Source: Limnohabitans sp. MORI2 (GTDB lineage Bacteria > Pseudomonadota > Gammaproteobacteria > Burkholderiales > Burkholderiaceae_C). Taken from it: a stretch of 64,000 nt of DNA. Positions 13,728 through 16,245 of this stretch are shown piece after piece (positions within the stretch are counted from its first letter, which is position 1; every line of letters starts with the position of its first letter). Position numbers and translations under genes: made by a program. The notes beneath the pieces are model-generated. The model was not told the origin of the DNA and did no database searches. It saw only the letters and a list, made by a program, of their open reading frames with translations. The stretch is taken from NCBI RefSeq assembly GCF_027925025.1, contig NZ_AP027058.1:2046001-2110000 (forward strand), in the 5' to 3' direction.

Positions 13728-14798
13728 ATGAAAATCGCAGTTTTGCCCGGCGACGGCATTGGTACCGAAATCGTCGCAGAAGCCGTCAAGGTCTTGAATG
13801 TCCTCGACTTGAAGTTTGAAATGGAATCGGCCTTGGTCGGCGGCGCCGCGTTTGACGCGCACGGCCACCCCCTGCCCGAAGCCACTTTGAAACTCGCCAT
13901 GGATGCCGACGCCGTGTTGTTTGGCGCCGTGGGCGACTGGAAATACGACACACTCGACCGCCCCCTGCGCCCCGAGCAAGCCATTTTGGGCCTGCGCAAA
14001 AACATGGGCCTGTTTGCCAATTTCCGCCCCGCCATTTGCTACGAGCAGCTGGTGGGCGCATCGAGCTTGAAGCCTGAGCTGATTGCGGGCTTGGACATTT
14101 TGATCATCCGCGAACTCACGGGCGACATTTACTTTGGTCAGCCCCGTGGTCGCCGCACCGCCGTGGACGGCCACTTCCCCGGCGCGCTGGAAGCGTTTGA
14201 CACCATGCGCTACAGCAAGCCCGAAATCGAGCGCATTGCGCATGTGGCTTTCCAAGCCGCGCAAAAGCGCAACAAAAAGGTCACCAGCGTGGACAAGGCC
14301 AACGTGCTCGAAACCTTCCAGCTCTGGAAAGACGTGGTCACCGAAGTGCACGCCCAATACCCCGACGTGGAGCTGCAACACATGTACGTGGACAACGCGG
14401 CCATGCAACTGGTCAAAGCGCCCAAGGCGTTTGACGTGGTGGTGACCGGCAATATGTTTGGCGACATCCTGAGCGACGAAGCCTCCATGCTCACCGGCTC
14501 CATCGGCATGTTGCCCTCGGCCTCGCTCAACAGCAAAAACCAAGGCCTGTACGAACCCAGCCACGGCAGCGCCCCCGACATCGCCGGCAAAGGCGTGGCT
14601 AACCCGCTGGCCACCATCTTGTCTGCGGCCATGATGCTGCGCTTCTCGCTCAATCAGCCCGAAGCCGCCGAGCGCATTGAAACCGCCGTCAAAGCCGTGC
14701 TGGCTCAAGGCCTGCGCACCCCCGACATTTACAGCGAAGGCACCACCAAAGTGGGCACCGCGCAAATGGGCGATGCGGTGGTGAAGGCGTTGCGTTAA
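13728..14798 (+). CDS. leuB: 3-isopropylmalate dehydrogenase
   Basis: 356-residue NAD-dependent decarboxylating dehydrogenase, third step of leucine synthesis. [16 protein letters not shown] opens the fold, [14 protein letters not shown] holds substrate contacts, and [26 protein letters not shown] is the metal/substrate motif; [18 protein letters not shown] binds NAD. AAAGAAAAG precedes the ATG. Last gene of leuCDB, followed by a terminator. Confidence 0.97.
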
Positions 14799-14820
14799 TT
14801 CGCTTCCTGTCCCACCCTAG

Positions 14821-14850
14821 AAAACGCGCCTTCGGGCGCGTTTTTCATTT
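14821..14850 (+). terminator. Rho-independent terminator of leuCDB
   Basis: Perfect stem AAAACGCGCC / GGCGCGTTTT closed by a stable TTCG tetraloop and followed by T. It lies 22 nt after the leuB stop, so asd downstream needs its own promoter. Confidence 0.93.
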
Positions 14851-14905
14851 CAGCGCACTGACTTGAACCTCTAAATTTGTCAGCCAGCCACAAGCCCCCA
14901 TCCAC

Positions 14906-14911
14906 TACAAT
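14906..14911 (+). promoter_or_regulatory. Candidate -10 element of the asd leader transcript
   Basis: TACAAT, 7 nt before the leader ATG at 14919. A TTGTCA at 14877-14882 is 23 nt upstream, too far for an ordinary -35, so the -35 is unclear. If used, transcription would start at about the leader ATG and the leader mRNA would be leaderless, in keeping with the missing ribosome site. Confidence 0.4.
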
Positions 14912-14918
14912 AGTTGTC

Positions 14919-15020
14919 ATGTTTCACGCCCGCTCGTTCTCTCTGAACTTCGCTGCCACCGCACTGGTGGCTGTTGGCGCGCGTGCAATCACCATCAAAA
15001 CCACGACCATTAAGGGCTAA
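14919..15020 (+). CDS. Putative asd leader peptide, Thr/Ile/Lys-rich
   Basis: 33-codon ORF in the leuB-asd gap. The last part reads AITIKTTTIKG: four Thr, three Ile and two Lys codons in a run (14988-15014) just before the stop. These are end products of the pathways fed by Asd, the enzyme of the next gene. There is no ribosome site before the ATG, which lies at about the predicted transcription start. A stop codon 7 nt before a strong alternative stem is the layout of ribosome-mediated attenuators such as thrL or leuL. The ORF and codon run are seen directly; the regulatory role is inferred. Confidence 0.7.
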   Translation: MFHARSFSLNFAATALVAVGARAITIKTTTIKG

Positions 15021-15026
15021 TCAGCT

Positions 15027-15092
15027 CCGGTTCGTCGTGCGCCACCCCGGCCAGACGAGCCGGGCAAACAGTCAGGTCTGGCACTGTTTTCT
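15027..15092 (+). promoter_or_regulatory. Putative attenuator with alternative hairpins upstream of asd
   Basis: Overlapping complementary segments: stem A 15027-15036 with 15054-15063 (CCGGTTCGTC / GACGAGCCGG, one G-U pair); stem C 15050-15056 with 15076-15082 (GCCAGAC / GTCTGGC), followed by ACTG and TTTT; stem B 15046-15051 with 15059-15064; stem D 15066-15072 with 15083-15089 (AAACAGT / ACTGTTT). A and C cannot coexist. A ribosome stalled on the Thr/Ile/Lys codons leaves A free (antiterminator); one reaching the stop at 15020 covers the left arm of A and allows C (terminator). The C terminator is weak on paper because its T-run is short and set back by 4 nt. Confidence 0.6.
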
Positions 15093-15114
15093 ACATTTGA
15101 AAAGGCGTTGAAAA

Positions 15115-16245
15115 ATGAGCAAGTTAGTAGGTTTAGTCGGTTGGCGCGGCATGGTCGGCTCGGTGTTGATCGACCGCATGATTCAAGAGAAAGACTTCGA
15201 TCTGATCGAACCCGTGTTCTTCTCCACGTCTAACGCTGGTGGCAAAGCCCCCGCGCAAGCCAAGAACGAAACCACGCTCCAAGACGCCAACAACATTGAC
15301 GCACTGAAGCGTTGCGAAATCATCATCACTTGCCAAGGCGGCGACTACACCAAAGAGGTGTACCCCAAGCTGCGCGCAGCGGGCTGGAACGGCCACTGGA
15401 TTGACGCAGCCTCTAGCCTGCGCATGGCAGACGATGCCGTGATCATCTTGGACCCCGTCAACCGCAACGTGATCGACAGCGCCTTGGGCAAAGGCGGCAA
15501 GAACTGGATCGGCGGCAACTGCACCGTGAGCTTGATGCTCATGGGCTTGGGCGGCTTGTTCCAACACAACCTGGTTGAGTGGGTCAGCGCGATGACTTAC
15601 CAAGCGGCTTCAGGTGCAGGCGCACAAAACATGCGCGAGTTGCTCAGCCAGATGGGCGCTTTGCACGCCGCCGTCAAAGACGACTTGGCCAACCCCTCTT
15701 CTGCCATCTTGGACATCGACCGCAAAGTGTCAGCCACCATGCGCAGCGCCGAGTTCCCCACCAAAAACTTCCGCAATACCGCCTTGGCTGGCAGCTTGAT
15801 CCCTTGGATCGACGTGCCTGTTGAACACGGCCAAAGCAAGGAAGAGTGGAAGGGCGGCGCTGAGTGCAACAAGATCTTGGGCAACCCAGCATTCCGCACA
15901 GCGGGTTCGATTCCTATCGACGGTTTGTGCGTGCGCATTGGCGCGATGCGCTGCCACTCACAAGGCTTGACCATCAAGCTGAAAAAAGACGTGCCGATGG
16001 ACGAGATCGAAAGCATCTTGGCCAGTGCAAACGACTGGGTCAAAGTGGTGCCTAACGTGCGCGAAATCAGCGAACGTGACCTGACACCCGCAGCCGTGAC
16101 CGGTACTTTGACAGTACCAGTGGGTCGCTTGCACAAAATGGCCATGGGCAACGACTACTTGGGCGCGTTCACCGTCGGTGACCAGCTCTTGTGGGGCGCT
16201 GCCGAGCCTTTGCGCCGCATGCTGCGCATCCTGCTCGAAGCGTAA
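15115..16245 (+). CDS. asd: Aspartate-semialdehyde dehydrogenase
   Basis: 376-residue NADP-dependent enzyme making aspartate semialdehyde, the branch point to lysine/diaminopimelate, threonine, methionine and isoleucine. The N-terminal [17 protein letters not shown] is the Gram-negative Asd nucleotide-binding motif; [16 protein letters not shown] carries the catalytic Cys; [16 protein letters not shown] carries the His. AAAAGGCG lies 9 nt before the ATG. It sits between leuB and fimV, the usual Burkholderiales place, and is preceded by a putative amino-acid-sensing leader. Confidence 0.97.

Follow-up and report, generated by a model that had tools for sequence, protein, structure and literature searches.

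We have found a leader upstream of asd that is a real, family-wide peptide-leader switch, undescribed as far as we have searched, and that probably acts on translation. Judged from its sequence, it is very probably an attenuator that senses threonine (T), isoleucine (I) and lysine (K), and we lean towards a mode of action in which asd would be freed when any of the three is short, mainly at translation start. The product of asd is the shared precursor of lysine, threonine, isoleucine, methionine and diaminopimelate. Reading three end products, probably at translation start, and often being built into the end of an enzyme of another pathway, such a leader would widen the notion of the leader peptide, and an ordinary-looking LeuB tail and odd synonymous codons would gain regulatory meaning.

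Among the matches listed (titles and abstract starts) in the open-licence full-text literature, a body outside which most subscription papers lie, there was neither an asd leader in this group nor a LeuB tail of the kind described below, and asd goes unmentioned in the portions of main text available for PMC2965389, PMC1262725 and PMC6429828. At gathering level, Rfam returned no match for the window (the whole 64,000-nucleotide stretch of DNA that was analysed) or for six relatives.

Leader reading frame and its distribution

In the window, asd (15115-16245; all features lie on the forward strand) is preceded by a leader open reading frame of 33 codons and TAA (14919-15020; ATG at 14919, stop at 15018-15020), which is translated as MFHARSFSLNFAATALVAVGARAITIKTTTIKG and ends in AITIKTTTIKG. 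The preliminary description had placed this frame, its stop and a set of mutually exclusive stems 5' of asd, and its coordinates were confirmed. The sensor codons, I-T-I-K-T-T-T-I-K, occupy 14988-15014, and nine of the last 12 residues are T, I or K; asd is therefore preceded by a short reading frame that ends in codons for pathway end products, as is looked for in an attenuator. The best tails in 800 mononucleotide-shuffled upstream regions of stand-alone leaders never reached seven T/I/K in the last 12 residues, and loci from other families reached five at most (four loci with leaders being excluded).

The family was taken as Comamonadaceae-type by inference, the named contigs with the nearest Asd including Limnohabitans, Curvibacter and Hylemonella. 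Of 100 genomes sampled from this family, 98 yielded an Asd, and the locus set of 97 consists of 95 of those genomes (G041, G043 and G057 were left out because of contig ends) and two family genomes from a search of the order. The leader is present at 86 of the 97 loci, fused to leuB in 44 (L030 and L123 counted among them) and stand-alone in 42, and 11 loci are without it. Statistics on tails, T-runs and promoters refer to the 84 members filed automatically (44 fused, 40 stand-alone), in which the end of the tail lies 69-147 nt from asd; four mis-called asd starts among them were corrected for the RNA comparisons. The two members outside these are L040, with a stand-alone leader 170 nt before asd, and L044, in which leader and hairpin precede another reading frame (GNAT acetyltransferase-like by eye) with asd behind it. 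T, I and K are each represented in all 84 filed members (in the tail of the fused form and the last 12 residues of the stand-alone form), and together make up 59% of the residues of fused tails and 67% of the last 12 residues of stand-alone leaders; the corresponding share is 6% of the last 12 residues in 61 LeuB proteins of other families.

A covariance model of the stop plus hairpin (R1), built from 44 sequences, matched 210 of 250 family genomes and has a single match in the window, at 15010-15065. At least 11 genomes among the matches listed have two matches and the others one. In the locus set R1 matched 86 of 97 loci, three of them weakly (22-28 bits); the negatives are ten of the 11 leader-less loci and one filed member, L086, which has a tail, and the remaining leader-less locus, L089, gave a weak match. 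Across the order, 14 of 300 genomes matched, ten of which belong to the same family and four to other families at 26-30 bits, approximately chance level. An alignment across the family had been proposed in the preliminary description as a check, and the conservation that it anticipated, both of the leader and of its T/I/K codons, was borne out.

In another family of the order, a T/I/K leader was found before asd at 19 of 30 loci fetched and not at the other 11 (57 genomes with Asd). These leaders (L098, L161-L176, L178 and L180), for example ...ITPKTITKR*, have a different stem; those printed show by eye an extended -10 element (TGTATATT or TGTAGACT) 6-8 nt 5' of the ATG, and they are probably leaderless too. 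Further T/I/K-rich frames before asd, with yet other hairpins, were seen in a small family (L102, L137 and L138) and in Parvibium lacunae (L233). The window Asd itself (15115-16245) is approximately 72% identical to most Asd proteins of its own family and 80-86% identical to those of Polynucleobacter/Rhodocyclaceae type. Possibly, the asd coding region was exchanged in situ while the family-type leader was retained. All 13 matches in a plasmid search fell in the stretch around or after the asd start.

Promoter elements and the LeuB-fused form

Upstream of the leader in the window lies leuB (13728-14798), which by comparison of tails ends in ...VVKALR* without a sensor tail. The leuCDB terminator that had been proposed behind it is visible as a terminator-like perfect inverted repeat at 14821-14844, although it is absent from the list of an automatic terminator scan. 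A TACAAT sequence at 14906-14911, seven nt 5' of the leader ATG and unmentioned in the preliminary description, is a likely -10 box; an automatic scan of 14700-15300 listed no sigma-70 promoter. A box of this type precedes an in-frame start at 32 of 40 stand-alone loci, with a spacing of 6-9 nt in 29 of the 40. Such spacing suggests that transcription begins on the ATG or close to it, and stand-alone leaders are probably carried on leaderless mRNAs.

In 44 of the 86 family leaders the sensor tail is the in-frame C-terminus of LeuB, a form that the preliminary description did not include. Behind the usual LeuB end (MGDAVV...) the fused tails read ITTTKTIKG, ITGKTITKS, ITKKTTKG and SKTITKTITTS, among others; elsewhere in the order, in the families examined, most LeuB proteins have no such tail and stop at ...AAL or within a few residues after it. 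In a large protein collection, T, I and K stand behind the conserved LeuB end in 117 of 120 relatives among the matches listed, a count that is not a frequency, as the relatives were listed in order of their similarity to a tailed query; the 117 include Roseateles, Paucibacter, Ideonella and Variovorax paradoxus. Twenty tailed LeuB proteins are 85-95% identical to the first of them, yet their tails vary in length and order. In a quick IQ-TREE phylogeny of LeuB (93 rows; six of 90 inner branches well supported), fused and stand-alone members are clustered but interleaved, with at least nine changes between the forms. An AlphaFold model of a tailed LeuB, made from a narrow alignment of 20 sequences, had a mean pLDDT of 57, so that its low-scoring tail is little informative; the best match among solved structures, 4iwh, aligns as far as residue 355 of 367, where 4iwh ends.

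The fused form, too, is accompanied by a promoter-like box, which is likewise absent from the preliminary description. TACAAT occurs inside leuB at 41 of 43 fused loci, 0 of 28 stand-alone loci, 2 of 11 loci filed without a leader and in 0 of 57 other-family genomes. It lies at synonymous sites, 13 nt 5' of a conserved Met-Met in the fused examples read, and the codons at this position in non-fused leuB are mostly GCC/GCG-ACC/ACG. We read this distribution as selection on leuB DNA linked to the fused leader, and the box is presumably a second promoter for the sensor mRNA. L036 and L089 retain TACAAT inside leuB though no sensor tail was filed for them; these could be recent leader losses.

We consider it rather likely that in approximately half of the family the LeuB C-terminus itself senses amino acids for the next gene; besides the T/I/K tail on the enzyme, a promoter maintained at synonymous sites in leuB would yield a second short mRNA with the same sensor. 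On this reading, the window could carry a shortened leuB end, detached from the enzyme, as its stand-alone leader. Stand-alone leaders often start MFAARPFALN (14919-14950 in the window), somewhat resembling the in-gene start MMLRFSLN of leuB. This likeness is a hint that the stand-alone leaders could descend from the end of leuB.

RNA structures between the leader stop and asd

Arm B (CCGGTTCGTC, 15027-15036) pairs with arm C (15054-15064, of which 15054-15063 is GACGAGCCGG), with 94.8% of cells paired across 44 sequences and at most 48.1% in slid controls. According to the family alignments, arm C is common to this hairpin and to an alternative one, in which 15046-15051 pairs with 15059-15064 (paired in 88.1% of cells, against no more than 52.8% in slid controls). 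Mutually exclusive RNA structures therefore lie behind the sensor codons in the window and are kept in the family. None of 200 dinucleotide shuffles folded as well as 15015-15095 (z -3.12), and the longer stretch 14920-15120 was unremarkable against shuffles (z -1.42). Of the covarying stems that the preliminary description had named as support, the first was found to be conserved; a tree-based covariation test (R-scape-like, 95 rows) gave no significant pair, with a poor tree from the short alignment. The arms hardly vary, and covariation therefore proves neither stem.

Behind the CGTC of arm B, the segment that follows the stop, often GCGCCCU or CGCCCC, matches the Shine-Dalgarno (SD) sequence of asd, often AAAGGGCG. 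In the window this anti-SD segment is GCGCC (15039-15043), complementary to 15104-15108 within the SD region AAGGCGT (15102-15108) and not named in the preliminary description; such complementarity to the SD of its target gene is what a translational attenuator calls for. Over 90 of 100 rows (four near-copies, two rows without an anchor and four with a mis-called asd start were removed), the mean for the native anti-SD:SD duplex was -10.77, compared with -9.93 when partners were swapped between loci and -10.17 when they were swapped within the two forms only, and in neither test was any of 300 swaps as low as native. The swaps ignore kinship and tree, save for the one made within forms. The longest Watson-Crick run averaged 5.28 in native pairs, 4.78 in swapped pairs (0 of 200 as high) and 3.94 in shuffled ones, so that the native value exceeds all 200 swaps and all 200 shuffles. 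Individual loci show the two partners changing together: GUGCCCU with AGGGCA (L018), GUGCCCCU with AGGGGCA (L020), AUGCCCU with AGGGCAU (L200) and GCCCCU with AGGGGU (L026).

Folding predictions were made with the bases next to the stop masked, as by a ribosome. With nine post-stop bases masked, opening the SD became costlier by over 1 kcal/mol for 40 of 48 stand-alone members (two fell by more than 1) and 19 of 46 fused members (one fell), and the median opening energy went from 2.6 to 6.2 kcal/mol and from 3.8 to 5.8 kcal/mol, respectively. In 160 shuffled controls with 12 bases masked, the opening energy rose in 16% and fell in 17%. The OFF fold predicted under nine-base masking pairs what remains of arm B with the asd start (15030-15035 with AUGAGC, 15115-15120). 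With 72 nt of upstream RNA left free to pair, a comparison of the stop with codon -5 gave a rise of more than 1 kcal/mol in 14 of 47 stand-alone (four down) and 14 of 46 fused members (five down), and no SD-opening effect in the window. The opening energy in the window was 1.2 unmasked and 2.3, 1.0, 3.5 and 4.1 with 9, 12, 15 and 18 bases masked. Ribosome-free RNA is predicted to be in the ON fold, a default that a good attenuator should avoid. Taken together, the duplex and folding results lend moderate support to a translational switch, the folding effect being weak when the upstream RNA is free and small in the window.

In the mechanism that we propose, a leaderless mRNA would start near 14919 and be translated immediately. 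A shortage of charged Thr-, Ile- or Lys-tRNA would stall the ribosome on 14988-15014 and leave the RNA past the stop free; arms B and C would pair, locking the anti-SD segment inside the hairpin and leaving the asd SD open (ON). With ample supply, the ribosome would reach the stop codon and shield approximately nine further bases, part of arm B among them. Arm C would then fold with 15046-15051, and what is left of arm B would pair, together with the anti-SD segment, with the asd SD and AUG (OFF). In approximately half of the family, the sensor would be the LeuB C-terminus, translated by ribosomes that complete LeuB and, presumably, also on an mRNA from a promoter inside leuB. The preliminary description had likewise left the first stem free under a stalled ribosome, and its direction of control fits this switch.

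Alternative readings and known systems

Classical transcription attenuation would use 15027-15036/15054-15063 as antiterminator and, as terminator, either 15050-15056/15076-15082 or an A+T-rich 7-bp hairpin (AAACAGT...ACTGTTT, 15066-15072/15083-15089), followed by TTTT. All of these elements exist in the window: the second stem of the preliminary description, GCCAGAC at 15050-15056 with GTCTGGC at 15076-15082, is present, it overlaps the first stem so that the two exclude each other, and TTTT follows at 15087-15090. An A+T-rich hairpin at this place (15066-15089 in the window, not named in the preliminary description) is also frequent in stand-alone members, and a run of five T occurs before asd in 25 of 84 family members. 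The reading is nevertheless unlikely in our view, because the automatic scan of 14700-15300 listed no terminator, the long T-run is missing in most members, the A+T-rich hairpin is not common to the whole family (in the alignment the short members L198 and L200, among others, have no hairpin plus T-run before asd), and the anti-SD swap result is left unexplained. Nor is the second stem conserved across the family, and the terminator assignment is less well supported than the leader. Rho-dependent attenuation, in which the leader ribosome would hide or expose a C-rich Rho site past the stop, is equally compatible with the leader and sensor evidence and could use the C-rich post-stop region; we hold it to be improbable, as the Rho site is putative and the reading does not call for SD complementarity.

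The sensor itself might be a fixed nascent-chain arrest peptide, and the stand-alone form does often end in an identical KTTTIKG. The 44 fused members, however, have 42 different tails, with composition but not order in common, and varied order with constant T/I/K fits amino-acid supply better, making an arrest peptide highly improbable. To the idea that reading frame and hairpin arose by chance, or that the LeuB tail serves the enzyme alone, we give hardly any credence. The middles of seven related leaders compared lack codon-position bias and the case for the leader is computational, but the shuffles, the family-wide conservation, the restriction of TACAAT in leuB to the fusion and the occurrence of the same tail apart from LeuB at 42 loci all speak against it. 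The translational switch is thus the reading that we prefer. From the earlier proposal of a leader attenuator for the Asd pathway, the T/I/K leader, the exclusive structures and the conservation stand, and the terminator becomes the weaker alternative.

In gammaproteobacteria, the thr operon is preceded by thrL (Thr_leader in Rfam), a short leader with many Thr and Ile codons. The asd leader resembles it in being a short, Thr/Ile-rich frame before an aspartate-family gene with competing stems, and differs in also containing Lys codons, in preceding asd alone, in its bacterial group, and in having SD complementarity instead of a clear terminator. In the translational attenuators of erm genes, a drug is sensed through a ribosome that stalls on the leader, which changes the pairing of the RNA and exposes the SD. 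A stalled leader ribosome would open the SD here as well, although the codons indicate that amino-acid supply is sensed. In SecM-secA, ribosome stalling at the end of a longer protein encoded upstream controls the gene that follows; SecM has a fixed arrest motif and itself acts as a sensor. The fused form is similar in using the end of the upstream protein for control, but LeuB is a metabolic enzyme and its T/I/K tail is variable. In the LEU element before leuA in Actinobacteria, as presented in the available part of its description, a run of Leu codons pairs with the SD and a pseudoknot was proposed (PMC1262725). Unlike the element presented there, the asd leader would pair its post-stop segment with the SD, and it lies between leuB and asd.
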